Positions 11,637 to 64,000 of a stretch of 64,000 nucleotides of DNA are shown in pieces (the first letter of the stretch is position 1; each line of letters starts with the position of its first letter). This DNA comes from Lojkania enalia (Eukaryota; Ascomycota; Dothideomycetes; Pleosporales). Location of the stretch: assembly GCA_010094045.1 (NCBI GenBank), contig ML986602.1:384718-448717 (forward strand), given 5' to 3'. The translations under genes were made by a program, and so were the position numbers. Below the pieces are notes generated by a model. That model had not been told where the DNA came from. It ran no database searches and saw only the letters and a list, made by a program, of their open reading frames with translations.

Positions 11637-14600
11637 CTAAAACCCAACCTTCCCACTTTCCCACGGCCCCAAATACGAGCTCTTAACCCCACCCAAATCA
11701 ATTACGATCCGATGAACCACTGTTCCGGGCTCCAACAACCAAACACTCAACTCATGCCTCCCGGGCTCCACCCTTCCCAAATTTGCACTAACAACTCTCG
11801 CCCCATTGATCACGCTCTCGCTCCATCCACTTGGCATAGAGCCTAGAGTGTGACTTGGCACCGGCGTGATCGTCGTCGGGCCCGCGGAATCTAGGCCTAC
11901 GGCAAGCTTGAGAGGCGTGGAAGGCGCGACATTGAACGAAGGCGGCAAGTACAAGCTGATTTTGGCATTCGAGGCCGTCGAGACGGAGTAGAACGCGTAC
12001 ACTGCCTTCGGCGCTGTGGCTACTGTCTGTGTGCCCGCGGTAATGGGCATAAAAGTCAAACCCGAGTCCGTGCGGCCGTAGTTGGGGATGATTTCTACGC
12101 TGCTTCCGCCGCCTCCGCCTTCTTTCCGGGTAAAATGTTGCATTTCGATGGCGACGGCGCCGTTGGATTCTACGTAGCCTTTGAAATCTTCTGGAACGGC
12201 GAAACTGTTTAGCGGGAGGTTGAGCTTGACTTCAGACCCGGTCTTTGGTTTTATGGTAATGGATGCTGTGCTCGAGCCGGACGGAGCGGCGGACCAGTCT
12301 ACCCGGATTCTGGCGCGGATATCGGAGGTGCCAGACGGGTAGCTGATTGTGCCAGAGAAGGGAAGTACCCTGATATAAGACTCTGAAGATGTGATGGTAA
12401 AGTCCATGGAGCCAGAGCCGCGGGCGTAGATATCAATTGTTCGGTTCTCGGGGGTGTACGGATTTAGGCCTAGAAGTGTGGGCGTTGTGCCTCCGGGGAC
12501 GGAGGCTGCATCGTTCTGCACGGATACGCCTAGGATTCCAGTTGATGGTGCAGTGGTGCTGATCGTTCGGACGGAAGGCATGGTGCCTGGATATGCGGCA
12601 CCTGGGTCTTGCCTAATTTCTCATTAACATAAATGCGCTCGCCAATCTTCGTTGAGAGAGTAAATGAATCTACGGAGGAAAGTAGGAGTAGAAATACATA
12701 CCAATACGTATATCCAAAGTGCAATTGATCCATCATGTGGTTCCACTTTCCGTTTAACAACCCATGGTACCTCTGCTGAATGACCTTGTCCTGGGCATAC
12801 ATATTCCTCACACCGTCTGCAAGTGTATTCGCACTCATTCTCTTCTGATTTGCGTACGCTGCATTCCTCGCCGCATTAATATAACAGTACTGCACCACGC
12901 GTCCCGCCATGATAGGATGCAACACCATCTCGAAGAACGCAATCTGCGTATCCTTATCCAGACTATTATACAAAGTCTGAGCTGTATTTTCGAGCGCGGC
13001 CCATTCATCTATAACTTTTTCGGCTTCGTCGTAGTATGTTGTTGTGTAGGGGAAGTTGAGGTTAAGAAGCTCGTATTTGCGGCGGATGATCAGTTTGCCG
13101 TATGTTGCCATGGTTTCTGCGGTCCCCTCTGCAACCTCTGGGCCGAATTCTCGGGTGGCCCAGGCTTTGAGCCAGGAGTCTGTACTGGTAGGTGATGTGA
13201 ATTGGGACATGTCGTATGCCATATCTAGGAAGTGAGAGATTGGAAGTTCCTATGACGCCATTGCTATCAGCACCTCGACTTGATTAGTAGGAGAGAAATG
13301 TGAGGAGACGTACTAATGGCTTAAGGTCTCCAACGTTGACGATCCAAATTTGAGCTGCGTTACGCTGCCATGCTAGATGCATCTGCTGCCATGTCTTGCT
13401 CAATTGAATGCTGTTGATCCATTTGTAGTTCCTTGGATCTCCAACGTAATCAAAGTGATAGTAGACACCCGCGCCCCCACTCCTATTCACCTCGCTGGAT
13501 ATCGGAAGCCGCTGGATATTTCCGCTGTTGTCATCACTCCAAAGGATTGTGACGTCCTCGGGAACCTTCATGCCTGCCTGGTAATAACCGCCTACTTCTT
13601 TATACACACACCACATCATCGGCACATCCTTCAATTCACTCACACTGAGCGTACTTTTCAAGATCCCTTGCTGGAAGTTGATGACATCAACAAGAGTATT
13701 AGCATCGAGGGTAGGTGACGCAGTATCCCCGTCCCCGCGCATGCCTAATGTCCAGACGACTTCCCAATTCTTACTACGAGTAGCCCCGTCCTGCATATAT
13801 CTTTTCAAATTATTTTGATTGCTTTTCCAATCCCAAGGCTTAACCTTCTCTTTATCAGCGCGTGCCATGGGCTCTGTATGGCTCGTTCCCATTGCAATAC
13901 CCATCTCATCTGCCAGCGGTCCGTTCCTGCTGTCGTCAGTATGGAACCGCGAATTCCACATTGCCGGCCAGAAATAATTTGCTCTCAATCTGAGTAGGAG
14001 TTCGAAGACCTTGGCATGGAACCTCGAGTCGTACTTTCCACCATAATTTGCATTTACCCAGTTAGTGAGAGCAGGTTGTTCATCGTTTAGAAAGATGCCA
14101 CGGTATTTGACTGAAGGTGAACCCTGGATCTTCGTGCTCGGTAGCGCATAGATGGCTGTTTTCTTTTTGGGAGGAACGTCGGCCCACCAGTACCAGGGAG
14201 AGACGCCGATTTGTTCAGAGATGTCGTAGAGGGCATAGATGGTACCTCTTTTGTCGCTTCCGGCGAGAACAAAAGCGGAAGAAACGCCGTCGGCTGGATT
14301 CTCGACGATTTTGGTTATGAAGGATTCCCATTTGCCTTTGATAGATGATACATCAATCTTCCCGTCAGAAACCAAGCTGTCAATAAGAGGGGATTTTCCG
14401 ACGGTGCCTGCGATGATGACCGGAGTATTCGAGAGCCCGGAAAAGCTAGTGACAGTTTTGCCTTTTGTTCCGGTTACAAGTCCAAAGTCATTTGCAAGAT
14501 CATTACCCGCACGTGTTACTCCTGGCCAGTCTTTCGAATCAATGACAATCGTTGGCGCAGAACCAGCTCCTGCAAGCTTCAATCCACCTTCGGTTTCTGA

Positions 14601-14684
14601 GAATGCTAGACTTGCTGGTTGACCGATTGCCCAAACTTGTAGGGCCAAAGCTAGGAGGGAGAACAGAAGACCTAGAAACTCCAT
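11637..14684 (-). CDS. Secreted GH115 xylan alpha-1,2-glucuronidase
   Basis: Exons 14684-13314, 13249-12702 and 12612-11637 give 964 residues, the usual size for fungal GH115. Join 1 yields GDLKPL|ELPISHFLDMAYDMS; join 2 splits a Trp codon (YTYW|QDPGAAYPGTMP). Residues 1-22 form a signal peptide (LLFSLLALALQVWA). The N-terminal alpha/beta domain precedes the catalytic barrel, with SPWYWWADVPPKKK, RGIFLNDEQPALTNWV and LRANYFWPAMWNSRF. A helical domain and C-terminal beta-rich domains follow (GVSVQND onward). GH115 enzymes remove (4-O-methyl)glucuronic acid from glucuronoxylan outside the cell. A GGCTAA hexamer, the core of the XlnR/Xyr1 xylanolytic regulator site, lies about 175 bp upstream. 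There are no neighbouring CAZyme genes, so this is a stand-alone wood-decay or litter-decay gene. Confidence 0.93.
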
Positions 14685-15705
14685 ATTTGGTTTGACAGGT
14701 TGTGTAGGTCTGACAGGACAAATGAAGAGAAGACAGATTTACTTATTCCGTGCACCATCCATGGCTACGGCAAATGTATGGAGAAGATACTTACCCGGAA
14801 CAGAGAGATGGACGAGGAATGTAAATGCCATATTCCGATTGCAATATAGAAAGAGGCTGGCTAAGGGACTTACCAAGACGTTCATACAAGGGAAAAGTTG
14901 GGGAAATAAAGAGATTCACATAATATGAGACCCGGACAGTACAGGCCGGTAAATATGCCACATGATTACAAGAAACGCCATGAAACCCGACAGAAAGAAT
15001 TTCTTCTTGTTGGTGGATAATATTATTCCGTCCCCACCGACTTTGAACCGGAGGTTATTGAAAAGCTTTTTGTCTACGCATGGATAGGACTCCTGCTCTA
15101 AATGGGATAATCCGGGAAGGGACATAAGACCCTCATTGATGCTACAGAGGGGAATGACTCTGCGAGGTAATTGTCTGAGCTCGAGGATGTCGATTTGAGA
15201 AGAATGTGGAGATTCATCGTGGGGCGTTGCGGAGCCTAATTTGTTCTAAATTGAATAATTGTTTCGTTCTATTTACCCACATTTTGCACACAAACGACTG
15301 AAAGTTCAGCCATCAAGTGGTGTATCTGTAGGCCGGTGTCTACCGAGCGATGTGCGAGCTAAAAATTGTGTTGAACACAAGCGCTGATGTTCGACGAAGC
15401 CTGGTTTCCAAGCTTGGTAGTAGCTCGGGATCGGATCAACGAATCACCGTATCCTAACCCTTTTTCGCAAACAGAGAAATCATTTGAAGGGTGTATTCCA
15501 TACTTATGACAAATCTATGGACTGGTCTATCATAAAAATTACCATGAACTCTGACAAGCATTACATCGGGGAAAAAAAAAAAAGGTCAAATCGATTCATC
15601 CAGAATAGTGGAGTGTCGTTCCGATCCCAAAATGCTACTTTTCCACAACGCCTATCGGTCTACAGTAGGCTGATCCATCTCATCCTGTCCCAAACGCCGT
15701 TTTGT
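14685..15705. other. Promoter region of the GH115 gene and 3' flank of hsp88
   Basis: About 1 kb lacks a coding frame of its own. The GH115 promoter occupies the left part. The right end is the 3' untranslated region of the Hsp88 gene and contains an A-run at 15571-15582. Confidence 0.5.
14859..14864 (+). promoter_or_regulatory. Possible XlnR/Xyr1 site (GGCTAA)
   Basis: A GGCTAA hexamer lies about 175 bp upstream of the GH115 start codon. It matches the core bound by the xylanolytic activator in other ascomycetes. One hexamer can easily occur by chance. Confidence 0.25.
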
Positions 15706-20476: not shown

Positions 20477-21959
20477 TTACTTCCCCCTCCAACCCACTCG
20501 ACACAACGCCCCATCTTGCGTAAAAAAGCCCTCCCTTCCTCCACCACTACTCCCCCTGACTTCCCACCCGTCGCTCCCCACCCCACTGATTACCCAAAAC
20601 ACCCCCCACGGATCCCATCTCTTCTTGATCTTTTCCAACCGCCCATAATTAGGTCCATAGAAACTGTCTTTCCAATCTGGTTCCTGCGCATCACCTTCAT
20701 TAGTATAACTCCCGCTACCGGGTGTGATGTCGCGCCAGGCTTGCATGTACCGCATCAGCCGATCGTGACTGCGTTTCTCATCCGCCATGCTCAGCTGCGG
20801 ACTTGCGCCGTTCCAGTGCCGGTTACCGTCGTAGCCCTGCGCGTGTAGCACAGCAGTGCGCCATGCGGGGAGGACGGCGTTGTCCGGATGCCCGCCGGCT
20901 TCTAGCGTTGGCGAGGTCGCGATGCCGTGGTAGGTGTAGCCACCGTCTTCTACGAAGGTGCGGACTGCGGACACAGTTTCAGAAATGGAGATTGGGTTGT
21001 CGAGGTTTGGGCGCTGGAAGAGGCGGGAGGCTATTAAGGCGCTGGGAATGTTTTCGCCGAGGACGCGGGGTGTGAGGTGGGAGGGAGATCGTTTTGTGGT
21101 TGGTGCGGGGATTGGGATAGCGAGGGCATTGAGGCGGTCTAGGAGAGGGCGGACGAAGGCCTGGTATTCGGATGTGGTTTTTTCGGGGAGCCAGATGGAG
21201 GTTGAGAAGGTTAGATCTGGGCTGGAGGATGTGGGGGTGTGACGGATGAAGTCGTAGCTGATGTTTGTTAGTGTTCGATGAAGGCTATGGAATAGAGGGA
21301 GACGATTTACCCTAGCCCACCGGCATCGGTAATGGGGACGAGGAATGCGAAGTATTCTCTAATACCCGCCCAGAATGTATCTGTAGATATGGATGTGTTG
21401 GACCCTGGATCTGGCAGAGTTGAGAAAGTGATAGTGCCTGTAGCGGATCTTGGAGTGGACCACGCTTTGACAATGACAGAGGTGATAATTCCATAGTTTC
21501 CTACAAAATTTGATTAGAAAGGATACCTCCGAAGGGGGGAATTCTGGTATGGGAAAAGAGGTCAACATCGCATACCACCACCTCCACCTCTAAAAGCCCA
21601 AAACAGATCCTGGTTCTCTTTGGGACTCGCGGTCACAAATCTCCCATCCGCAGTAACAGCATAGATTAGTAGCGTGTTATCTGCTGCCAATCCATGCTGG
21701 GCAGAATTCCTAGAGTGACCACCGCCTTGCAAATAACCTCCTGCCATGCCTACTGTTGGACCTCCGGCAATATGCATGGTGAAATTGTTCCTGGCACTCA
21801 AGAGGCTGAGGTCTTGTGCTTGGGTACCGCCACCGTAAGCTACTGCTTTGCCTCTATATTTAGGGGATATGTAGTTTGGGTGATAAGTAGTCGCTTTTAG
21901 GCCACTAACCCAGATACCCAGGGAATTACCACCAATGCTTTTGCCGTTGACTAATGTCC

Positions 21960-39649: not shown

Positions 39650-40085
39650 TGTGATAGGGATTTGGCGAGTCTACTGAGTACGATTTCCTACTACCGTACG
39701 GGAGCAAGTTATCCGGTTGCAGGTTGTATCGGATACCGTCGCACGATATCAAATCACGCTGGATATCAGCGGATATACCCTTCCTTATATATGTGTTGAG
39801 AGGCGAATCTTGTCTCAGGGAGGGAGATGAGGAGCTGAACTGGTTGATTGAAGATGGCCAGCGGGCCATATTTATGTACATGAAAAAGGGGTATATCAGC
39901 TGATATCCAGCGTGATATCCGGCGTGATATCGACCGTGATATCGTACGTCGATATCTGATACAGCTCGGCAGACTAGCCAAAAATCCCCATGACAATATA
40001 CATAAATATGGCCTACTGGCCATCCTCAATCAACCAGTTCAGCTCCTCATCTCCCTCCCTGAGACAAGATTAGCCTCTCACCACA
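39650..40085 (+). mobile_element. Older solo LTR, family A, split by a younger copy
   Basis: The two halves, 39650-39793 and about 39996-40085, join into an LTR that aligns with the copy at 42316-42519. It starts TGTGATAGGGATTTGGCGAG and ends CCTCTCACCACA. The flanking 5-mers are identical: GTCTA at 39645-39649 and GTCTA at 40086-40090, a target-site duplication. Many substitutions relative to the other two copies show it is the oldest. Confidence 0.85.
39794..39995 (-). mobile_element. Younger solo LTR, family A, inserted in the older copy
   Basis: On the minus strand it begins TGTCATGGGGATTTTTGGCT and ends CTCTCAACACA, 202 bp. It is nearly identical to the plus-strand copy at 42316-42519. 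It is bounded by ATATA on both sides (39789-39793 and 39996-40000), a 5-bp target duplication typical of LTR elements. It sits inverted inside the older copy. Confidence 0.9.
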
Positions 40086-42310: not shown

Positions 42311-42315
42311 ATCTT

Positions 42316-42519
42316 TGTCATGGGGATTTTTGGCTAGTCTGCTGAGCTGTATCAGATATCGACGTACGATATCACGGTCGATATCACGCCGGATATCACG
42401 CTGGATATCAGCTGATATACCCCTTTTTCATGTACATAAATATGGCCCGCTGGCCATCTTCAATCAACCAGTTCAGCTCCTCATCTCCCTCCCTGAGACA
42501 AGATTCGCCTCTCACCACA
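42316..42519 (+). mobile_element. Solo LTR, family A
   Basis: A 204-bp sequence begins TGTCATGGGG and ends CACCACA, flanked by ATCTT on both sides (42311-42315 and 42520-42524). It contains five GATATC palindromes with starts at 42355, 42368, 42380, 42392 and 42404, and a TACATAAATATGG TATA-like box. It is the best preserved copy of the family in the window. Confidence 0.9.
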
Positions 42520-43316: not shown

Positions 43317-43610
43317 TATAAGGTTATATATATAGCAGGATCCCCATTAAAGACCAACCCTGATATCATGTGATACTAGGACAGAGAGTATAAATAGCCT
43401 TGATCCTCCATAGATACTATAAGGTTATATATATCGCACGATCCCTATTATGGATTAGCTGAATATTATGTGATACCTGGAGCAGACAGTATAAATAGCC
43501 TTGCTCATCTATAGATATCAAGCAATACAGTCTTTCCTCTTCATGTGCCCTGATACTTAACAGATATGAATCAATGCAGTTCTCCTACTCATCTGCCCCG
43601 ATACTTTACA
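43317..43610 (+). mobile_element. Solo LTR, family B (outer copy), split by an inner copy
   Basis: The halves 43317-43417 and 43568-43610 join to a 144-bp LTR. It starts TATAAGGTTATA (probably mutated from TGTAAGG) and ends CCCCGATACTTTACA. GATAT flanks it on both sides (43312-43316 and 43611-43615). It contains the TATAAATAG box seen in all copies of the family. Confidence 0.8.
43418..43562 (+). mobile_element. Solo LTR, family B (inner copy)
   Basis: A 145-bp copy, TATAAGGTTATATATATCGC to CCCTGATACTTAACA, is nested in the outer copy in the same orientation. Flanks are GATAC (43413-43417) and GATAT (43563-43567), a target duplication with one C/T change. Removing it restores the outer LTR sequence as seen in the copy at 53872-54015. 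Confidence 0.78.
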
Positions 43611-48274: not shown

Positions 48275-48648
48275 TTCTAATCCAATAACCGGATCAATCG
48301 CACCTTTTCTGTAATGGCTATGTATTTCTGGATATTCTCATCGGTATTATATATCCGGCTCTCTAGCAGGGCCTGCTTCGTTAGCTCTAAGGCTGTAAGT
48401 TGCTCCTCAAGCTCACTTGGTTGAGCACCCTTCTTACGGCTCTAGACCACGTTTTGCCCATATATCGCTAAGGTAGTGAGTCTAGGAGGAACTAGTCAGC
48501 AACATAGCAGTATAAGCATTATCCCTTGTTAGGTATTAGGACATATGATTGATAGCTACGGAGGATCAATGCTATTTATACCTTCTATCCTAGTGTCACA
48601 TGATATAAAAGCTAGTTCTCAATAGGAGTTGTGCCTTATAACCTTACA
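48275..48648 (-). mobile_element. Family B LTR with attached internal retroelement fragment
   Basis: The LTR runs 48648-48527 on the minus strand, from TGTAAGGTTATAAGG to CCTAATACCTAACA, with a TATAAATAGC box. Beyond it, about 48420-48275, a coding-like frame reads ELEEQLTALELTKQALLESR and YNTDENIQKYIAITEKV, a helical sequence as expected for the start of an LTR-retrotransposon gag. It is cut off afterwards. This is the only family B copy with apparent internal sequence and indicates that the short repeats are LTRs. Confidence 0.65.
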
Positions 48649-50070
48649 TTTCTCACCAAAGTTAACGGTGCTATAGCGCGGAGACAGTTGTGAGTTTTCC
48701 GGACTCCACAAGGAACAATAAGGGGTATGATAACAATCTCCTGTTTTGACTAGAGATGCCCTTTTGATGTCTAGTGCGGAATTCATAGTCACGAGACTCT
48801 CTGTGGACACTGGCCAAGATTTTGTGTTATACGAATGAAATGGCACGCCTAAACTATGAATTGATGAGCACGATTCTCGGTCATTTGGAAGACAATGTAT
48901 GAGTTCTAAATAGGTTTTTTGTATTATATAAATGAAATGACATGCCTAAATTATTAATAACTTTTGTCAAGGAAATCAAGCTTTTACGGGAAGTGATAAT
49001 TTATCTTGAGAGGTTAAGAAATTGGCCAGGTACCTTCAAGTGTAGGACCGACACAGCATTCTTCTGATTTACTTTGGCGCAAGCGAATAGTTGCCGATAT
49101 GCCTCGTAATATCAGATTCTGTGGTTAAGACACAGTGGTGTACTTCGCTAGTAGAGCATGATTGAAAACTCCTCAATACTGAAAAGAAGAGGAGAGTAAG
49201 TAATAGATAAAGAAAAGCTGTTGTATCGAAATGATCATGGGAATACAAGTTCCGCACCAGTGAATGTCCGAGAATCAGAGCATTGATAATCGGGGACGAA
49301 TACCCAGGTTCCTTGTACAGTTGATGCTTTTTTTGTGTGTTTATATTGTCTTTCTTCGCTACAGTATCTAGTTTGGGGTGAACAAGTAGCTCGTTTTCTT
49401 ACATTTGCCCAGAGCCCACTCTTATCAGTCACTACGTAAAGAAGTGCTCCGTATTATTGTTCAGACTGTGAATAATGCTATTTCGGAGGCGGGAAAACCC
49501 CGAGGCGTCTCGTTCCGTTCTCAGCGCCAAGAAATCACAATATCAACAATAGCACGCGCAAATTAGATCACGTGCTAATCCGCGTTCACTGGCATAAGAC
49601 CAAAACAAACTGTCGTCTCACCCACTCAAAGCCAATACTAAATCCTCCACTCTTAAATTCCACACAACTCCACACGCATAGTCACAACTACCAACTCCGC
49701 GACCGCAGCAACCTATGTTTCTTGCCTCAAATCTTGATTCTTCTCATCTTCAGCTTCACAGTGCACACATTCTAGGTCAGTGCTAGCCTTCCACCGTGAG
49801 CCGTTCTCCAGAAAGTTGACCTGTGTCACTACGCTAGATTATCGCACGCCGCATTCAACGCTACTTTGACCATCCAGAGTCACTACACCTAAACCTTACA
49901 TGCTGCTCTTGAAGTTATTTTAGCGAGCCTCGTCACTCACGCCTAGAGTCTCTCTAGAGCCTCCAAAGTCTTCAAAGACCTTCATTGTTCTAGGAGACAG
50001 ATCGCATTGGTTTAGACGCCCTTTTTATCTTCAATTCCGAATTCTAATAACCACCCGTGTCATCCTCACA
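48649..50070. other. Intergenic region upstream of the repeat-protein gene
   Basis: The first part is A+T-rich and featureless. From about 49570 the plus strand becomes C/T-rich up to the start codon at 50071, consistent with a fungal promoter and long leader. Confidence 0.45.
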
Positions 50071-51717
50071 ATGGGCGCCTTCGCTCACATCGGTCCGGTC
50101 TTCGGCAAGAGCGCTCCCTCTAAGAATCTTAAGTTCCCTAGAAACGCCAATATGACCGCAGCCGAGATCCTCTGCTTCTTCCCCTACTGGCTCAAATCTG
50201 CTGACGTCGTCTACCGTCTTGTCGCAAACGGCATGACATCCAAGAACTGCACCATCATGATCAATGCTTTCCGAGCCTTCGAACCCGGCCCTACTACCTC
50301 CAATGGCATCTATCACATGCTCAAGGATACGATGAGGGGGTTTGGACACAAAGATTGGACTGTCACCAAACATCAGGAAATTGTTCCAGAGGACTGGACA
50401 CACAATGTTATCGCTGTTGGAGGGTTCCGTACTCACGCAGAGGACTTTCCCAAGCGTTCGCATCACAGCCCCCTTGTGCCCTCTGTGCCTTTCGCGGACC
50501 TAGGTGTAGACGTCAAGATGTTTCCGGACGGCGATGATGCCTTGGATGTCACTCGCTGCATTAAGTATGCCGTGGAACATCCAGACGAGAAGTGGAACTT
50601 TCCTACGGACTACGCAATGTTGCTCGAGAAGGTTGGGGGTGCGAAGAAGGTTGAACAAGAGCATTGGGACGGAAGCGTCTTCAATCGATGGAATGGCGTT
50701 AAAGGGTATCACACAAAGCCTGATGATAAGTTCAAGGCAAAAGGAAGGAGGTTGAAAAAGAAGAGGAAGACGGAAGAAGAGCAAGCCGGTGAGACGGAAA
50801 TAATTGAGCAAGCTCCAGCGCGAAAGAAAAAGAAGACTGGATGCAGGAAATCAACACCAGCAGATAATACTAAGTATGAAAAGATCAGCGATAAAGAGAA
50901 TCTTCTTCCTGTTCGTTTTGGAACGACAGAGACTGTGGCCCCTGACCAGGGTAGTGGTAGTCTGTGGTCGCCGCCGCATTTTCTCCCTCTCTCATTGGAT
51001 CTAGGCCATTTGCCAGCACACAGTTCTGAGCATGGAAAGGCCTGCTATAAAGAGAATATCCTCCCTAGTTATGCTGGCGCGACCGATATTATGGACCCTA
51101 ATCAGGGTGTTAGTGGTGCATGGTCGCCTTCACATCTATTCCCTTCTCCGCTAGATTCGAACCATTCAACGGCTTCGGAAACACCTATTCCCCACTCTAC
51201 CGGATTGGTCAAAGGGAATCCTGATCAGAATGCTGGCAGTTCATGGCCTCCCTACCATATATCTCCCTCTCAATTTGATTTAGACCATTCGACAATCCCA
51301 GAAAACTCTATCCCCTACTCTGGCGACTTGTTCGAGGGAAACTCTAATCTGCAGGGTGCTAGTAGTTTGTGGCCGTCTTCGTGTATCATTCCCTTCCCGC
51401 TGGATTGGGAGCGTTCGGCTATTTTGGACAACTCTTTGACCTACCCTACCGGCTTCGTCCAAGGGAACTCTGATCAGGGTGATAACTGTTTGTCGTCATC
51501 TCCACATCCGCTCCCTCCCCAGGTAGATCTGCACCCTCCACCATTTTCGGGAACTGGTTCTACTCCCTCCACAGCCTTCTTCGAAGAAGCTTTTGCGAGT
51601 ATGCCACCCTCGACACCCGGCATGCAGGCCCCTGTTGATCCATCCGGCGAGGCCCAACTTGATAATGGCCCGTATTACCAGGGTCTAAATCCTTATAACC
51701 TTATGTATCCGTACTAA
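50071..51717 (+). CDS. Unknown protein with a conserved N-terminal domain and five degenerate 41-residue repeats
   Basis: A single exon encodes 548 residues. Residues 1-212 look folded (NMTAAEILCFFPYWLKSADV, DWTHNVIAVGGFRTH, RCIKYAVEHPDEKWNFPTDY, WDGSVFNRWNGVKGY). A basic stretch with bipartite nuclear-signal character follows (226-256, RRLKKKRKT and RKKKK). Residues 276-488 contain five degenerate repeats of about 41 residues with the frame E/DNxxP...GN.DQ..GSSLW.P.H..P.PLDLDHS. The C-terminus is Pro/Ser-rich and ends in aromatic PYNLMYPY, like some activation domains. A decayed paralogue lies at 54430-54860. I do not recognise the family; a nuclear role is inferred from the basic stretch only. 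Confidence 0.75.
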   Translation: MGAFAHIGPVFGKSAPSKNLKFPRNANMTAAEILCFFPYWLKSADVVYRLVANGMTSKNCTIMINAFRAFEPGPTTSNGIYHMLKDTMRGFGHKDWTVTKHQEIVPEDWTHNVIAVGGFRTHAEDFPKRSHHSPLVPSVPFADLGVDVKMFPDGDDALDVTRCIKYAVEHPDEKWNFPTDYAMLLEKVGGAKKVEQEHWDGSVFNRWNGVKGYHTKPDDKFKAKGRRLKKKRKTEEEQAGETEIIEQAPARKKKKTGCRKSTPADNTKYEKISDKENLLPVRFGTTETVAPDQGSGSLWSPPHFLPLSLDLGHLPAHSSEHGKACYKENILPSYAGATDIMDPNQGVSGAWSPSHLFPSPLDSNHSTASETPIPHSTGLVKGNPDQNAGSSWPPYHISPSQFDLDHSTIPENSIPYSGDLFEGNSNLQGASSLWPSSCIIPFPLDWERSAILDNSLTYPTGFVQGNSDQGDNCLSSSPHPLPPQVDLHPPPFSGTGSTPSTAFFEEAFASMPPSTPGMQAPVDPSGEAQLDNGPYYQGLNPYNLMYPY

Positions 51718-52278: not shown

Positions 52279-52836
52279 ATGGCTCACCTCTTGTCAATCC
52301 TAAAAGAGCCGAATCATCCGGTCGAATAGGAATGCTCTTCCCTTCGCAGAAATAGAATCAACTACAAGGAATCCGGCTCCGAAGAAGACGGCCTAGTCGG
52401 TGTTAGATTGGCTCCAAAGAAATTCAATAACTCTGAAACAGACCTGTCGTCTCCAACAGAGCTTAGCGAGGAGGCCGATTTCGAGGCTAGTATCGGCCTA
52501 GAGAAAGAAGAGTCAGAGAATTCAAGTAGTCCAGCTCCTCGACTAGATAGCCTCTTCAGAGTTCAGAGACGTGCTTTGGAAGATAGTGTAGAATTGGGAT
52601 TCTCAAAGAATGATAAGATAGATACGACACCAAACCCATCGATTCCACGCTCACGCCGCGCAGCTGGTCCTGGTAGAGCTAGCGGTGGTCTCGCCTGTGC
52701 ATGTGCTTGCCGAGGACGTCTACCTCGCAAAGACAATATCGACTGGCAGAGCGATCGCTCTAACTCTAGCAGAGACACTAACCGCGGCCACCTGGACAGT
52801 CGAGGTCGAGTCTTACAAGAGAGATCACGAAGTTAG
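52279..52836 (+). pseudogene. Unknown coding sequence with one in-frame stop
   Basis: From ATG 52279 the frame reads MAHLLSILKEPNHPVE, then a TAG at 52327, then continues open as ECSSLRRNRINYKESGSEED up to the stop near 52836. The downstream part is Ser/Glu-rich and then Arg/Gly-rich (SIPRSRRAAGPGRASGG, CACACRGRLPRKDN). One stop in 185 codons suggests a recently broken gene, an intron near the stop, or a start downstream at 52408. Family unknown. Confidence 0.4.
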
Positions 52837-53871: not shown

Positions 53872-54015
53872 TGTAAACTATCGGGGTAGATGATTAGGAG
53901 AACTGCATTGATTCATATCTACGGAGGATCAAGGCTATTTATACTGTTTGTTCTAATATCACATTTTATCAGGGCTAGTCCTTAATGGGAATCGTGCTAT
54001 GTATATAACTTTATA
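53872..54015 (-). mobile_element. Solo LTR, family B
   Basis: On the minus strand it begins TATAAAGTTATATACATAGC and ends CCCCGATAGTTTACA, 144 bp, with the TATAAATAG box. Flanks are CCACT (53867-53871) and CTACT (54016-54020), a target duplication with one change. Confidence 0.78.
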
Positions 54016-55332: not shown

Positions 55333-55477
55333 TGGAAGGTTATATATATGACACGACCCTTACCAAGGATTAGCCCTAATACCATGTGATGCTAGGACAG
55401 ACAGTATAAATAGGCTTGATCCTCCGTAGGTGTGTATTAATACAGTTTTCCCTCCTTATCTGCTTCGATACTTTACA
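55333..55477 (+). mobile_element. Solo LTR, family B
   Basis: Begins TGGAAGGTTATATATATG and ends CTTCGATACTTTACA, 145 bp, with TATAAATAGG in the middle. The flanking 5-mers (ATAGG and ATTAT) do not match, so the target duplication is lost or the copy is recombinant. Confidence 0.72.
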
Positions 55478-57246
55478 ATTATTAAAGTTACTGTTGTTGA
55501 CCATGGCACTCATTTGCATTCCGCGCTAGCCGACTCGCGTTCCTCTCCTGCTTTTCAACTATGAATGCCAGTCAGCATTTCATTTCGAAAACCAATCTCT
55601 CAATTACGGCTTACAACTCCGTTTTCGTCAACTTGTCTTCACCCAGTGAAGGTCCTAGTCTTTGCAAAATTAATGAACTGTCTTTGAGGTTGACGTTTCG
55701 TCACGCTTAGGTCTCACCAGAAGCGGACGAACACCTCGATCATGCCAGCACGGGGCGTGGGAGACCCGATCCGGCTGTGCCTTTGTAGTGATCTGCTTTT
55801 TCAAGTTAAAGTAGAAATGTGGAATGGCAGCGCTTCGCCGCGTAAAGGCTAGTGAAACGGGTGCGAAGCAACTTCTGTATAATTGGGAAATTAAGATGGG
55901 GACTCTCTATGGAAGCAATACCAGATTAAACCACACCGACTTGGATCCAGCCCTAGGCGGTTTTGTTCAGCATTGCTATCGGCCTCTTGGGCGCTTCCGA
56001 GCTGATGAAAAGTAAAAATCTGAGAACATAGAAAAATGCCTAGGTCGTATCTTATATACCACAAATATACTGTTGGTTTCGCTTGGGGACATATCTTGTC
56101 ATCCTTGTCCAACCGCCTATATGCTGCCCTGCGGTATGCCAACCTTACCATGACTCACTTTTATGTAGAGGAATTATAGTCTTGCACAAAAATTTTGGCG
56201 TGATTGGGATGGTACGAATATAAGACATTGTCGTTTTGTTTGCTTTGTCTTCAAGGTTTCAGTCAATGGAGTTCAAAGCGCGATGCTCTGGAATGGATCT
56301 ATCGCGTCGCACCGTCTAGCTGCCACCTGTGACACTGGCAACCCATACCGTTTCGAACTCTCCTTTAGGCAGATTTAATTTAGTAGGCTTGACACGTGTG
56401 GCCCTGACGGGATAGTCCTTGGCTGAAGCGGTCTCCGTTGTCATTATACTGTTAGATTCCATATCCTGTGTCTAGGGAGTAGGAGGACACCCTGTCTCCT
56501 GTCATGGCCTTGTCGTCCACACGGACGATAGTTTTCTCGGCGCTGTGGGTATATAGCGGGGCAGACGAGCCTCGTGGATATCTTCATCTATAGTCGGGCT
56601 AGCTCCGTTACTCTTCAAACTCAGGAACACGTGCTCTCTCTGGGCGCGCTCACGCCGCCTGCTATGGCCCTCAAAGGGTTGATTTGAGGTTTTGTAGAGG
56701 AAAATGCGTTGGCCGACATAGCGCGTCGGGATCAAGTTTGGCCTTTGAGTCGGGGCCATAGACATATAGCAGGGCCGTCATTCTGCATGCATCTCGCACT
56801 ATTCTTATCGTGGATAATCTCTAATATCTAGTGAAAATTATAGGGAAGCTAGTAACTCTAAGAATGTCCGCTGGCTGGAGTGAAATTGGGCTGCCGAACG
56901 AGATTGGGGGTGGATATCACCTGAGACGGCCCGCTGGTTTGAAATTTGTGTATTATTCTCCTCAATGTAACAGGCTGGCATGATGGATCGCAACGTAGCA
57001 ACATCAGATAGAACAGCAGGGGGTAATGTCCGTATATTGTGTAGAGAGAGACGAATCGCTACCATTACTGCAGGGTATGATTCGGCTATTTCAACCTGGT
57101 GTCAGGTGACCCTAGAGGATCAACCCCTAACACAACCATGAGATATTACGCTCAAAATGAAGCTGAAGTTGAGGCTTCTGGGCGGTTCCAAGGATGGAGA
57201 TGGAACAGAACACAATCCCTCCAAGGTCCAAGCATGGACTACATTC
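55478..57246. other. Intergenic region downstream of the fusion gene
   Basis: Several short frames occur. A 48-codon minus-strand frame near 56460-56310 (MESNSIMTTETASAKDYPVR onward) and an 87-codon minus-strand frame at 56765-56502 are the only ones with slight coding character. No family is recognised and I would not call either a gene. Confidence 0.35.
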
Positions 57247-60200
57247 CTAAGCACCGCCAAAGATCAAAAGGCTGTGGATCTTGACTCTGCCAAACCCATG
57301 CTGGCGCAATAATTGCCGGCCACGGTGAACCGGGAATTCCGCCACAACCATGACGCTAACATCATCGGCGCGGATGCCAGCTTTATCTAGCAGCTGTAGC
57401 ATCGCACAAAGCGTCTTCCCACTGGAAAGCACATCATCCACCACCACCACTAACGCGCCCCTAGGGACCACATCCTGCTCCATCTCAATGCGCTTCTCTT
57501 TCGAATTGTAGGATATGTGCGACGATGCCTTACCAACAGAAACGGTAGGCGGGGGCAGCTTGCCAGCCTCGCGAATCAGCACCAAAGGAATATCGACCCG
57601 CAAAGCCAATGCCGATGCGTAGACAAAGCCGCCAGCCTCGCAACACACCACCGCTCCGACCTTAGCCCAGTCACCAGTGAAGTGGGTTTGTAGCAGAGAC
57701 GCGCACAATGCCAGCCCGCCCGGCTGCTGGGAGATGCCGAGCAGGTGGCGGAACTCGATGCCCGGGCGCGGGAAGTCTGGTACCGCGCGCACCATGTTGG
57801 CCAGTCGCTCCAGGTCGTTGTGCACGAAGGGAAGCAGGTAACGTTTAGCAAAGCTCTCTGCAGCCTCGTTTCCGGTCGCGTGATTGTCGAAAGTGAGAGT
57901 GGAGCAGTAGTAGTCTAAGATCGATGGATCCGACCCACAATGGTTGCTGCCCTTGCTGTCCTTGCTGTCGCCGTGGCACCGTCGGCGAGCCCGCCTCGTC
58001 TGTTCGCTAGCCTGGACGTGAACGTCGAGCAGCCTGCGGTCTGGAACCAAATGCGACAAGACGGCGACCGGTGCCTCGTCTCTCATCCCAGTTATAAGCA
58101 GCACGTCCACGTCTGCAGCGCCGTACACCACATCGAGAAAATGCTCTTCTGGTAGTCGAGGCCGCTGCCGCGCCTGTTCCTGGTAAAACGTCGTCAACGC
58201 TGGCCGGTGTTGCTCCTTGTAGGCACGGTCCCAAAGCAGGCGGTCCAGATCGGCGCCCGTAGCCGCTGCGTATTCTCGCTTGGTCGTGTCGCTAATGCTG
58301 ACTGCGCGCGCCGTGAGGCTTCTATGGGCACAGTTGGCGAACACGGAGACCCAGACCTCGGCACAGTAGTCCTTGCCGGCGCCGCTTTCGCCCGTGACAA
58401 GAATGATAAGCTTCTGTTCCATCGACGCTTTCGGGATTGGGCAGGCGTAAGCCAGTATATGATGGGGGTCCAAGCGATGCTTGAGACGGGCAAGGTGCGG
58501 TCCGTTCCGTCCAAACGCCTTGGCTGCTAGCGGGGCGTCTCTAGGGTCCGGCCCAAGGTCGGCGCCGTACGCTCCTTCACTCCAAGGCAACAAGTCACTA
58601 GCGACGCCGTAAACCCAGCGCACGGCAGATCGTGCGGCCTCGGTGCCGTCTCGATCACGAGGCCAGACGCCGGTGATCACGCAGGCAAAGTCCCAGTCTC
58701 TACAGCCAAAAGCAGTGGCGTCGGCCGCAACGTCGCCCACCGCTCCGCCACCTTGCAGCAGATGGAGATAGCAGAGTGGCGAAGGACGAGTTTCAACGGC
58801 CGCTACCAAGCGGGCGGCGATGTTCGCTTCTCCGATGCATTTCAGGAACAAGCATCGCTTGAATGAGGACGTCTTGCCGCTGCCATGCCCGCCATGCATC
58901 CTCGACACGTACATCTCGGTCTCGAACAGACCGACGCCGTCCACGGTCTTTATATCAACTTCCACCCCCCATGTACTATTTCCAGGTGTAGGCACCGCCG
59001 TTGCAAAGGTGAGCCCAGTCGTCGAAGATTCGAACATAGCCACACCAAGATGGAGCAGACCGGCGTCCCAATACAGATACGCGTCTGCAGAACAGTTTTT
59101 GGAGAGCGCTCTAGCGAATCTATCAAACTCACCGAGCCTAAGTCGCGCGTCGAGGTTACTGCTAAGCGGGACAATCCACGTGCGGATGTTGTATATCTGA
59201 GCCGTGTAAGCCCTGAAGGTGACGCTGGTCACGATGCCAAAGTTGGTCCCGGCACCTTTCAACGCGCATAATAAATCCATTTCGTTTTCCGGTCGAACGG
59301 CGCTGGCGGGCTGGTGTTGGCTTGGTACACAGCCTACGCATAGAACCTGGCCAGAGTCGACGCTGACCACAACGGCGCCAATAATGGCGTCGCACGCGAG
59401 CCCATGCAGCCTAGCTAGGTGCCCAATGCCACCTTGCAGCCACAGGCCCGCACCTACGCTGGGGCGAGCCCCCAGGGGCACTGTCACACCCGCCGCCATA
59501 GTCTTGTGGACGATATCTCCCGTCGTACAGCCGGCTCCGGCGACGACCAAAGGACCGGAATCGAAACTGTCCCTCCCTTCTCGGAGAATGTGCACTTGGT
59601 CAAAGGCGCTCATGTCGACCGCGACAACGTTGGGCCAGAGACAGTGGCCGCTGTGGCCACCGCCGATGACGGTTAGGCTGGCCCCGTGCTTCAAAGCCCA
59701 TTGAACGCACTGCTGGACGTGTCGGTCCTCTGTTGGCCTCATAATCGAGGCGGGACGGTGGAGGCGCGCCTCCCAATTCTTAACCGTTTTGTTGACCAAT
59801 GACACCTGGCACGTAAGCTCCGGCAACGTAGTCGCGTTTTGGGTGAAGGCTGCCATAACTACGGGCGAACTGAACGAGAGATGATCTGGGTGGGCTTCCT
59901 CGCGACGGCCTAGAGTGCGGCATACTTGACGCCAACTAGCCCGGATAGCCTCGTCCCTGTCCACACCCTGCGTGATGAAACCCGCGATGAAAGGAGCAAA
60001 ATGGTTTAGTACCTCATCGTCATTTGCCACACGAACGACGCTAGTAGGGAAAGATGCTGTTCGATGGCACACCAAGCCGTCGAGGCGCAAGACCCCGTCA
60101 CGATAAAAAACAACTACCAGTCCGCCTTGTGGCTCAACAAACAGTTGTAGTGCACCTTCGATGAACCTTCGTTTGGGCTCCATGCCGTACATGCTGTGGC

Positions 60201-60690
60201 AGAATAGGATAATATCGTACTTTTCGTCATTAACACCCGCACCGGTTCGGGTATCGTTATCTTTGTCGTCCTGGGGTATGAATGGGATCTGATGGATGGC
60301 GGGCGCATTTTTCAGACAGGGCAGTGGGAGTCCTGCCTCGGAGGTAGAGCAAAGCCATTCTTTCAAATCTGCGGCATACAAGTTGTTAGGCTCGAATGCA
60401 GTGTATCCACTGACCCTGCGTCTTAGATTGTAGGGGAGAAACCCAAGTACGCTCTTCGGGCCGGGTCCGATTTCTAGTGCCGAAATTTGTGTACGTGAGT
60501 TGAGAAGAAGGACTAGTAGCTGAGATAGTTGAGGAATAATGAAGTCTTGGTACGTCGTCCACCCCGAGCCCTGCACTAAGATTTCGAAGCCGGCGCTGTA
60601 CTGTGTGTCGGACAGCGGCTGCTTTGGAACCAAGGCCAATGCCTTGGCTTTCCGCCTAAGTGCGTGCTTCAGGGAGTCAAGGGTGGCCAT
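57247..60690 (-). CDS. Four-domain fusion: methyltransferase, FAD oxidase, phosphomevalonate-kinase-like and adenine-phosphoribosyltransferase-like
   Basis: One intronless frame encodes 1,147 residues from ATG 60690 (MATLDSLKHALRRK); the frame stays open to 60849 but the upstream part lacks protein character. Residues 35-285: Rossmann methyltransferase-like, with SAM motif ALEIGPGPKS (71-80) and YDIILFCHSMYGM (158-170). Residues 310-755: FAD-linked oxidase, PCMH motif VIGGGHSGH (His346), GAGTNFGIVTSV (479-490) and a berberine-type end AFGRNGPHLARLKHRLDP. Residues 757-960: kinase, P-loop GESGAGKD (767-774), KREYAAATGADLDRLL, YKE and VQASEQTRRAR, as in animal-type phosphomevalonate kinase. Residues 960-1147: APRT-like, DFPRPGIEFRHL, REAGKLP (1040-1046) and PRPP loop VVVVDDVLSSGKT (1081-1093). 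All key motifs are intact. GC content is visibly above its surroundings. Product unknown; a role in modifying a phosphoribosylated metabolite is inference. Confidence 0.85.
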   Translation of the reverse strand: MATLDSLKHALRRKAKALALVPKQPLSDTQYSAGFEILVQGSGWTTYQDFIIPQLSQLLVLLLNSRTQISALEIGPGPKSVLGFLPYNLRRRVSGYTAFEPNNLYAADLKEWLCSTSEAGLPLPCLKNAPAIHQIPFIPQDDKDNDTRTGAGVNDEKYDIILFCHSMYGMEPKRRFIEGALQLFVEPQGGLVVVFYRDGVLRLDGLVCHRTASFPTSVVRVANDDEVLNHFAPFIAGFITQGVDRDEAIRASWRQVCRTLGRREEAHPDHLSFSSPVVMAAFTQNATTLPELTCQVSLVNKTVKNWEARLHRPASIMRPTEDRHVQQCVQWALKHGASLTVIGGGHSGHCLWPNVVAVDMSAFDQVHILREGRDSFDSGPLVVAGAGCTTGDIVHKTMAAGVTVPLGARPSVGAGLWLQGGIGHLARLHGLACDAIIGAVVVSVDSGQVLCVGCVPSQHQPASAVRPENEMDLLCALKGAGTNFGIVTSVTFRAYTAQIYNIRTWIVPLSSNLDARLRLGEFDRFARALSKNCSADAYLYWDAGLLHLGVAMFESSTTGLTFATAVPTPGNSTWGVEVDIKTVDGVGLFETEMYVSRMHGGHGSGKTSSFKRCLFLKCIGEANIAARLVAAVETRPSPLCYLHLLQGGGAVGDVAADATAFGCRDWDFACVITGVWPRDRDGTEAARSAVRWVYGVASDLLPWSEGAYGADLGPDPRDAPLAAKAFGRNGPHLARLKHRLDPHHILAYACPIPKASMEQKLIILVTGESGAGKDYCAEVWVSVFANCAHRSLTARAVSISDTTKREYAAATGADLDRLLWDRAYKEQHRPALTTFYQEQARQRPRLPEEHFLDVVYGAADVDVLLITGMRDEAPVAVLSHLVPDRRLLDVHVQASEQTRRARRRCHGDSKDSKGSNHCGSDPSILDYYCSTLTFDNHATGNEAAESFAKRYLLPFVHNDLERLANMVRAVPDFPRPGIEFRHLLGISQQPGGLALCASLLQTHFTGDWAKVGAVVCCEAGGFVYASALALRVDIPLVLIREAGKLPPPTVSVGKASSHISYNSKEKRIEMEQDVVPRGALVVVVDDVLSSGKTLCAMLQLLDKAGIRADDVSVMVVAEFPVHRGRQLLRQHGFGRVKIHSLLIFGGA

Positions 60691-61500
60691 TCTAGTTTGG
60701 CATGGGAATCTTTGATGACCACGATCGTTGGCGTGCAACTTATTAAGGCCAACAGCCGCGCGTCGGAGCGGGTTAAAGATAATGAGCAACACTGCCACGT
60801 CAGAGTGACGGGGAGATTGTGTAACACCATATGCCTCCCACATCAACAATGTCCATTACATCGAAGTCACTATATCTACCTTTGGATGAGAATCGACCCC
60901 GGCATACGACTCTTCCTTGCTGCTCTTGCTATTTGACATGGCTTTCGTTCTACCGTGAACTTTACGTAGGTAAATACATTCATTTTAGTTCGTGAGCCTT
61001 TCTTCTATGCTAGGAATTGCGGTGTAGCTGCAGAAAGCCTGCTAGCATAGATGTCACGGATTCGAACACGGATAAAGATGCCGCGCCGACTAGGTGGTGG
61101 CCTTCACTAATTCTGTAGGGAAATGACGATGCCTGATCAATCCACCACGTAGTGGGGGGGACGATGTCAGGCAGGACCGCCCACCAAAGGAATCTCCACA
61201 AGAATGACAGGTGATTAGTGAATGATTAGGAGATGATTAGAGGGCTAGAGCAAGGTGTTGAATGAATTACGTTAGAGAACTAGCTAGAGTTGGGCGGTTA
61301 CCAGGAGAATCATCTCATACTCACTTTCTTAGGCTTCGGTCTTCTTCTAAGTGAGTACTGAGCTTGAACTACGATTGGGGTTACTTGTGATCCTGAGCTT
61401 TGAGCCGACACAAGTCCACTATTATCCCGCCTAGTCTGCAATTGCCAGTATACGAACCCTGACGGCAATTAGCACGGTCTACGGCCGCTTCTAGACGACA
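60691..61500. other. Upstream region of the fusion gene
   Basis: Contains the presumed promoter (60691-61000). The rest has no gene; a minus-strand TTCGAATCC-like stretch near 61060 does not fold into a tRNA. Confidence 0.4.
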
Positions 61501-64000
61501 CTAGGTAGTTAGCTATGGAAGAATGTTGATATACTTGAAACTATTTAATCTTGAAAAAATACTTGTTATGACTATAGGGTGCGTGTGTTATCTGGCCCTT
61601 TAAACAGAAGCTGTTCTACCTTAGAATAGAAGTGCAAACCTCTAGTAATCTTAAGAACTTTAGTATCCCAGGTAGTCTACTTATCGTAAGAGGGTTAGCA
61701 TCCTGGATTATTTACCAATCTTAGGTCGGTCTCCTAAGACTACCTCTACAGTTAGTACTCCTATCTAATACTATTGTCTATTTCTAAGTAATAAAGCGGG
61801 CGATATATATATAGCATCTTTTAGTACTATAGTAGAAAACGAATTATATTATTTTCCTATAACGTATTCTACTATTAAAGCGGCTAAACTATCGAAGCGG
61901 CTACTTTTTCTTAGTACAACGAATACTATATATAAAAAGTTAATTTACTTAATACTAATAAGAGATTCTATATATAATATACTTTTATCTAATTTAGAAT
62001 TTTCTCTACTATCCTTTTAGCACGTACGAGCGTTATATCTAGTCTTACTATAGTTACTATAGTAGCGTTAAGCTGGTTAAGCTCTTTCTTAAGTATCAGT
62101 ACTACGAGTCTTCTTAAAGAGCTAAAAGCCTATAGATACTTTAGTAGCTATATATAAAGATCCCTTACTATATAATACTATACTACTATACTAAATATAC
62201 TTTCTTTTACGCATTTTACACTTAGTTACTTCTTCTAATTACTTTTTAAGCTTAGAGTTATAAGCTTAAAGAAGTATATTCTAATATAGTATTAATTTAA
62301 CACCTTTTATAAGCTGTAAGAATTCTTCTTATACTTCTTTTAGTAATTATATAAAGGACTTTTATATAAGTATTAATTATAACCTAAATTTATATATATT
62401 ACTTAGAGTTTTAGACTACTAGAAGTTTTCTTATAGAAATAGTTCTAGTAGGGTATACAATTATATATTAAGGCGATTTAATATAACCTACGCGTTTAAA
62501 AGAACAATTTCTATTACTTTAAAGGCCTTTTAATAGTTCTTATATATAAATATATTAAAAAACGTGTTCTTAAAAGCTAGAAGAAAGCTTTCTTTATTAA
62601 TATAGTAGATATATTAGTATACTTATAACAGTATAGGTAAAATAATAGGTCTAAATATAGTATAAATCTACTTAGAGGTATATAGGAGTATATAGGGGTT
62701 TAGAGACCTAGAAATTCTATTAACACCTATAGGCCTTATATAAAAGGATATAGAAGAACTACTAAGCTACTTATAAGAAAGTATACAACTATATATAGAA
62801 GGGAAAAGAGGTAGAGCTGGGGGTAGAATAAGATAAGTAAATAGCTTTAGGATAAGATTATATATAAAGCTTTTTATAGAACGATTTCTTCGTATTATTA
62901 TACTACCCCCCTTTTTATAGGCTAATAGTCTCTATCTATACTAGTTTAGGAGGGAATTAGAGCTATTATAGATAGGTTCTAGTATAAAGAAATTTCTTTA
63001 AAAAGGTATTTATTAGTAAAAGTTAATATATGTAGTTATCTATAGAGATATATTTATATATTAATATAATATTAAGTAAAGTTTTTATAGTAAGTATAAT
63101 TAACCTATATATTAGCTAGTAACTACTATTACGATAGTTTATTAATATTATAATTTCATCGCGTATAGTAATAAGTATTTACTAGCTTTAGTATATCGCT
63201 AGGTTGCTGTTAACTAAGCTTTCTTAACTAAACAACAACTTCTACTCTATATATATTATTATACGTCTCTAAAACTATTAATTATTAAAATATTACTAAT
63301 ACCTTATAGAAAAAATTAATTAATATACTACTCTACCCACCTTTTAAAGCCTTTTTAAAAACCTTCTAGGTTATTTACTTTTAAACTATATATATACTCG
63401 CCTATAAGCAGTATATAATATTTACTTTTTAGTTCCTAAGATTAAAAAAATATAAGTATTATATTATATGAAATAAAAAGTATAATCCTATATAAATCGT
63501 ATCTAATACTAGTAAAATACTTACTACTAATATACTTATAGATTCTCTTCTACTATAAGGAGGAGTTTCTAGTCCTCTAGGGCTATCTTAAACTATAGAT
63601 AGTAGTCTAATATATAGGAGATAAAGAGGATAAAAAGGTAGCTTTTAAGGCTATTTTAGAGTCTACTTATAGTCTAACGCTTATAGCTTAGGTTATAAAG
63701 AGTTAGGAAGATAGCCTTTTTACAGCTAGTATCTAGGTAGCTTTATTCTACTAGAGTACTAAATTACTCCGTTAGGTTTTAACTTTAGAAGCTCTAGTAT
63801 CTAGCCTTTAAGCTAATATTACAGCGCTCTTAGGCGGCTAAAGATAAGGTAAGAGAGGTTTAAGAGGAGTCTGGAGGGAAGAAAAGAGAAGAAGAGTAGA
63901 AGAGGAGAGGACTAGAGAGGTATCTAACAGCCTACTATTAGACCCTCTAGATTCTATAGAGGAGTAATTTTAGGCCTATAATTTAGTTTTCTAATCTACT
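61501..64000. repeat. Extremely A+T-rich block, probably RIP-mutated repeat or subtelomeric sequence
   Basis: By eye about three quarters of the bases are A or T. TA dinucleotides are very frequent and CG is rare, the composition left by repeat-induced point mutation. No frame of useful length survives on either strand, and no protein relic can be read. The block continues beyond the window. Confidence 0.7.

Follow-up and report, generated by a model that had tools for sequence, protein, structure and literature searches.

A single open reading frame in Lojkania enalia joins methyltransferase-like, FAD oxidase and P-loop kinase regions to an APRT-derived domain with an altered base site: a candidate multifunctional small-molecule enzyme

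The fusion of a kinase and a phosphoribosyltransferase on one fungal polypeptide is known from Cns3, encoded in the cordycepin/pentostatin cluster of Cordyceps militaris. Its transferase is of the HisG type, and according to excerpts of PMC8719641 it has not been confirmed that Cns3 takes part in the heterologous synthesis of cordycepin. Among oxidases, VAO-type enzymes can hold their flavin by one covalent bond or by two, and structural neighbours of a fungal VAO-type enzyme include EncM and 6-hydroxy-D-nicotine oxidase (6-HDNO), as described in excerpts of PMC6017366. Here we describe an open reading frame (ORF) of the ascomycete Lojkania enalia (GCA_010094045.1, contig ML986602.1, positions 384,718 to 448,717) that resembles Cns3, as far as those excerpts portray it, in joining a kinase and a phosphoribosyltransferase domain on one polypeptide. 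The ORF lies in a stretch of 64,000 nucleotides, hereafter the window, to which all coordinates refer. Unlike Cns3, it carries a transferase of the PF00156 family derived from adenine phosphoribosyltransferase (APRT) and a kinase of the PF04275 type, to which a methyltransferase-like region and a flavin adenine dinucleotide (FAD) oxidase are added. No oxidoreductase/HDc pair of the cns1/cns2 kind was found among the ten window ORFs scanned, the remaining ORFs lying outside that scan. The reading that we favour, tentatively and somewhat short of even confidence, is that of a small-molecule enzyme with several functions, in which the C-terminal half would phosphoribosylate and then phosphorylate, with methylation and oxidation modules placed before it.

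The minus strand between 57247 and 60690 holds one ORF that runs from an ATG (60690) to a TAG (57247) and encodes 1147 amino acids without internal stop, within a stop-to-stop frame of 1202 codons that extends up to 60855. When the 3444 bases were subjected to 200 dinucleotide shuffles and read in six frames, the longest open frame had a mean of 178 and a maximum of 339 codons, compared with the real 1147. A preliminary description, made from the DNA letters, had proposed a single intronless gene with four motifs in a set order, and this has held. The motifs ALEIGPGPKS (residues 71-80), GGGHSGH (343-349), GESGAGKD (767-774) and the phosphoribosyl pyrophosphate (PRPP) loop VVVVDDVLSSGKT (1081-1093; 57412..57450, minus strand, located by motif search of the ORF) follow one another in the uninterrupted frame, and no intron of one strict fungal consensus (GTRNGT, branch site, YAG) turned up when the DNA was searched. 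The four-part architecture of the ORF is confirmed. As for the four enzyme types that had been named, Pfam profiles for FAD_binding_4, P-mevalo_kinase and Pribosyltran exceeded their cut-offs in the whole protein, but Methyltransf_23 stayed under; one failing profile in four is fewer than the two or more that had been set down as telling against the proposal. Searched against its own genome, the gene gave one match as DNA, while the protein gave one full-length match and seven partial ones (one APRT-like gene and six FAD-domain stretches). Directly before the main ATG ends a three-codon upstream ORF, ATGCCAAACTAG (60692-60703, minus strand), which could reduce translation.

Residues 951-1147 (57250..57840, minus strand) are assigned to an APRT-derived type I phosphoribosyltransferase with an altered base site, on the basis of PF00156, APRT entries in the PDB and the predicted fold. 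The PF00156 profile (Pribosyltran) matched residues 986-1110 with 64.5 bits (cut-off 26.3), and the best PDB sequence matches were APRTs (2.6e-20). In the structure model, the predicted local distance difference test score (pLDDT) exceeded 90 over most of the domain and fell below 50 at model residues 301-305, i.e., protein residues 1057-1061. The top PDB fold matches were likewise APRTs, with template modelling scores (TM-scores) by target of 0.86-0.91 over the first ten, obtained with a model that had been supplied with 27 bacterial APRT rows, which bias it toward an APRT-like result. The domain is like APRT in its predicted fold, its PRPP loop and its 32-33% identity to four comparators. 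However, it alters 6 of the 17 positions invariant among comparator APRTs and does not reach the cut-offs of the equivalog models (TIGR01090, 89.8 of 185.85 bits; the nearest, NF002636, 102.6 of 125), so that the APRT label of the preliminary description is borne out by loop and fold and undercut by residues and cut-offs.

The comparators (n = 81) comprised bacterial loci, being the best 80 of 579 confirmed matches, and the APRT exon of the fungus itself; selection of the loci used similarity to an alignment (A1) together with two peptide patterns, as a result of which the set leans to canonical APRTs. The fungal exon apparently enters an intron from position 1092 on, and all six changed positions lie outside that part. 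The ORF retains 11 of the 17 invariant columns and alters the others as D982H, R1020G, K1041E, E1060S, A1089S and T1090S (comparator residue, protein position, residue here), and it keeps the DD and the G of the PRPP loop seen in the comparators. R1020G replaces the arginine of [E/D]xRGF, present in 81 of 81 comparators, in a stretch that aligns without gaps; by alignment the position matches what we take to be Arg67 of human APRT. Protein positions 1060 and 1061 align with human Glu104 and Tyr105, which docking has placed in the adenine site (excerpts of PMC7414151). The adenine-site glutamate occurs in all 81 comparators and is serine in the ORF. Because this position adjoins an insertion its alignment can slip: three of four alignments put Ser1060 at the glutamate and keep the flexible-loop Tyr1061, and the fourth, built from five sequences, puts Ser1057 at the glutamate and His1058 at the tyrosine. 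The Glu-Tyr pair is absent from the ORF in all four and present in every one of the 81 comparators. Elsewhere in the genome a separate APRT-like gene carries both the EARGF and the Glu-Tyr motifs. With invariant APRT residues lost, adenine phosphoribosylation by the ORF is doubtful, and we infer transfer to an acceptor other than adenine; since the genome retains an APRT-like gene with the usual motifs, the copy in the ORF would be free to take one.

The same features bear on a different role, in which the APRT-like domain would be a non-catalytic sensor of PRPP or nucleotides, comparable to the bacterial PurR repressor, that controls the kinase, oxidase and methyltransferase. The acidic pair of the PRPP loop is retained while the base site has lost residues shared by all 81 comparators, as might be expected of a sensor, and PurR is among both the sequence and the fold matches of the domain. 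We regard this role as rather unlikely, as the best matches are APRTs, with PurR standing 49th in the fold list, the flexible-loop tyrosine is kept in three of four alignments, and Pfam found no DNA-binding domain in the whole protein.

The preceding region, residues 757-950 (57841..58422, minus strand, with a methionine at 757), is a P-loop kinase of the PF04275 family. The PF04275 profile (P-mevalo_kinase) matched residues 765-882 with 77.8 bits in the whole protein and 82.2 bits in the segment alone (cut-off 33.8), and the segment is the sole PF04275 match in the genome. It is similar to animal-type phosphomevalonate kinase in its profile match and in the Lys-Asp of the P-loop. It departs from that enzyme in having ESG for the KRK of the P-loop and in falling short of the equivalog model for the animal enzyme (TIGR01223, 29.7 bits, cut-off 188.15). 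From a single sequence, the alignment to phosphomevalonate kinase 3ch4 was weak (E 0.034); we take 3ch4 to be the human enzyme, and its KRK residues presumably act in substrate binding. The structure model that covers the APRT-derived domain also includes the kinase, and pLDDT values in its kinase half were below 50 over long stretches. The weak alignment, the change from KRK to ESG and the equivalog score leave a phosphomevalonate kinase function by name unsupported, and of the earlier label "PMVK-like kinase" it is the PF04275-type P-loop kinase that survives and the specific enzyme that does not. Judged by its family, the kinase would phosphorylate some phosphomonoester.

These results also bear on the simplest account of the ORF, a chance fusion of standard mevalonate-pathway and adenine-salvage enzymes that keep their textbook activities, which is what the names of the top Pfam and PDB matches would suggest. 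Fungi perform this mevalonate step with a GHMP-type enzyme, Erg8, which is unrelated to PF04275, and we do not adopt textbook activities as the default since all three equivalog models fail and key residues of the kinase P-loop and the APRT domain differ. Taken together, the equivalog failure of the kinase, the loss of its basic P-loop residues, the six APRT changes and the separate APRT-like gene make plain adenine salvage and mevalonate metabolism unlikely, and we consider such a chance fusion very improbable indeed.

Residues 279-756 (58423..59856, minus strand) form a VAO-type FAD oxidase similar to EncM and 6-HDNO. The PF01565 profile (FAD_binding_4) matched residues 313-450 with 50.4 bits (cut-off 26.4), and the PDB matches of the segment included EncM (4.3e-16) and 6-HDNO (4.4e-16), aligned over about residues 305-497. 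The histidine of GGGHS aligned with GGGHS of EncM and SGGHN of 6-HDNO; we assume that the histidine at this position carries the flavin in these enzymes, which makes it the candidate flavinylation site here. At the position of GMHPKVG in 6-HDNO the ORF reads GARPSVG, which offers no cysteine that could form a second bond to the flavin, presuming that such a cysteine would lie within this aligned stretch. A second, weak EncM match at residues 636-754 (i-Evalue 0.035) extends the likeness into the C-terminal lobe and stops just before the kinase methionine at 757, so the two domains adjoin. Unlike EncM and 6-HDNO, the FAD domain is embedded in a four-domain protein, and the BBE element, PF08031, for which the preliminary description had also proposed a search, remained under its cut-off (11.9 bits, cut-off 20.6). 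Far from the gene, the window holds a BBE-domain ORF (20480-21358, minus strand; PF08031, 51.3 bits), perhaps part of another FAD oxidase gene.

The kinship of the FAD domain with 6-HDNO and EncM, its closest relatives among solved structures, would also fit a salvage or detoxification fusion, in which a dietary or host N-heterocycle is oxidised and methylated and then captured as a nucleotide, with no secreted product being made. That no cluster partner was recognised among the ten scanned ORFs agrees with this, but the neighbours were scanned just in part, and EncM-type oxidases also work in biosynthesis. We therefore treat salvage or detoxification as a minority possibility.

The remaining region, residues 1-278 (59857..60690, minus strand), is class I methyltransferase-like by motif I and by PF13489 under its cut-off, and is likely a methyltransferase. 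Motif I, LEIGPG, stands at residues 72-77; such a motif was carried by 71 of 20000 residue shuffles. When the N-terminal 280 residues were searched alone, Pfam listed no family besides Methyltransf_23, and against the PDB the region gave just two chance-level matches to capsid proteins (E 0.2 and 0.79). A search of the rest of the genome at E<=10, in which one candidate was scored, gave no match to it, and neither did plasmids.

Under the multifunctional-enzyme reading, the APRT-derived transferase would move ribose-5-phosphate from PRPP onto a ring nitrogen of an acceptor other than adenine; the kinase next to it, which is like nucleoside monophosphate (NMP) kinases, would convert the resulting phosphomonoester to a diphosphate. 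Phosphomevalonate kinases and NMP kinases carry out the same kind of reaction, from phosphomonoester to diphosphate, and the pairing of a transferase that forms a 5'-phosphate with a kinase from a family whose substrates are phosphomonoesters suggests a sequence of base, nucleotide and diphosphate for the C-terminal half. The small-molecule methyltransferase and the covalent-flavin VAO-type oxidase of the EncM/6-HDNO type may modify the acceptor or the product. Their fusion makes it plausible that the four modules cooperate in a single pathway. We infer the methyltransferase, the catalytic competence of every module, the acceptor, the sequence of the steps and the production of the ORF as one protein. 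The further step, to a pathway on a single protein that leads to a new fungal metabolite resembling a nucleotide, with an APRT-derived transferase for a non-purine ring, an NMP-kinase-like diphosphate maker and methyl and flavin tailoring, is speculative, and we think it unlikely.

Several observations weigh against the multifunctional-enzyme reading. The altered base site may mean that the acceptor is not adenine or that catalysis has been lost, and could equally mean that there is no transferase activity; we put an acceptor other than adenine first because the fold and the acidic pair of the PRPP loop are retained, as is the flexible-loop tyrosine in three of four alignments. PF13489 (Methyltransf_23) matched residues 55-193 with only 16.5 bits in the whole protein and 19.8 bits as a segment (E 7e-4), below the cut-off of 27, and a single-sequence structure model of the methyltransferase region, for which no alignment was supplied, was poor (pLDDT 37.5). 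In the FAD, kinase and APRT segments the G+C content at third codon positions is 0.65-0.69, above the 0.52-0.64 of seven reference frames of the window, and in the methyltransferase segment it is 0.56. Furthermore, the codon-bias score of the true frame was no higher than that of the opposite strand, and none of the ten ORFs scanned was recognisable as a biosynthetic neighbour, with most of 52-57 kb outside the scan.

The end of the window is the end of the contig, and between the gene and this end lies an AT-rich stretch (61800..64000) that resembles the product of repeat-induced point mutation (RIP), strongly so in the 62-64 kb bins (TA/AT 1.8, (CA+TG)/(AC+GT) 0.14-0.15) and to an intermediate degree at 61-62 kb. 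As the 5' end of the gene is about 1.3 kb from the strongly RIP-like bins, the ORF might be a fusion that is decaying or is not expressed, on the margin of a block affected by RIP, without integrated function. The six altered positions among 17 conserved in APRTs would suit decay, and the codon bias is uninformative. Nevertheless, 1147 codons without a stop, three domains well over their cut-offs and 1-kb bins over the ORF without RIP signature speak against this, and decay appears improbable to us.

A bacterial origin of the kinase-APRT half was considered and found no support in contig, profile or plasmid searches. A scan of contigs with this half matched 33 stretches, none of which encodes a relative by tblastn. 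The PF04275 profile exceeded its cut-off in none of 396 genomes sampled from one bacterial phylum, that of genome G001, where a single weak match reached 21.4 bits against the cut-off of 33.8, in none of 398 from a second, that of G002, and in none of six single genomes, of which G001 and G002 are counted again within the larger sets. With PF04275 over cut-off in none of the 396 and 398 genomes of the two phyla, nothing points to a bacterial source; 14 control genomes gave no match over the cut-off either, so the sensitivity of the search is demonstrated by the fungus's own genome only. Viral contigs scanned with the whole protein gave no match. Among plasmids, 30 records matched and none spanned more than 80% of the kinase-APRT half; the 20 matches listed all start at query residue 156 or later, ten being annotated as APRT and ten lying in unannotated stretches.

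Of the ten window ORFs scanned, seven matched Pfam families (Yip1, macro domain, BBE, CENP-L, GH115 twice and La) and three did not, including 49924-51714 and 52330-52833. Together with the RIP-like DNA, these genes point to an ascomycete-like fungus. The window was negative for Rfam families when gathering scores were applied. A glycosyl hydrolase family 115 gene lies in pieces, with its C-terminal domain, at 11640-14738 (minus strand). Dispersed repeats of about 90 nucleotides, some inverted, occur at 43320-43514, 48546-48634, 53909-53997 and 55336-55485; their ends resemble GTATAAATAGCCTTGATCCTCCATAG, and they are possibly a small transposable element. An inverted repeat of 205 nucleotides (39792-39996 and 42315-42519) is 99% complementary, with arms 2.3 kb apart.

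We found no description of the four-part architecture in the open-licence literature; it may be common in fungi and already in databases but unstudied. The combination of four modules with a rebuilt APRT site is unusual. If the modules cooperate, they would turn a ring compound into a modified nucleotide by a compact route, and the ORF would be a further fungal kinase-phosphoribosyltransferase fusion, built from domain families other than those of Cns3. It would also supply an APRT whose base site has been rebuilt in nature, from which the choice of acceptor by such transferases could be studied. Should the last domain be a sensor only, the protein would be an unusual PRPP-regulated multienzyme.

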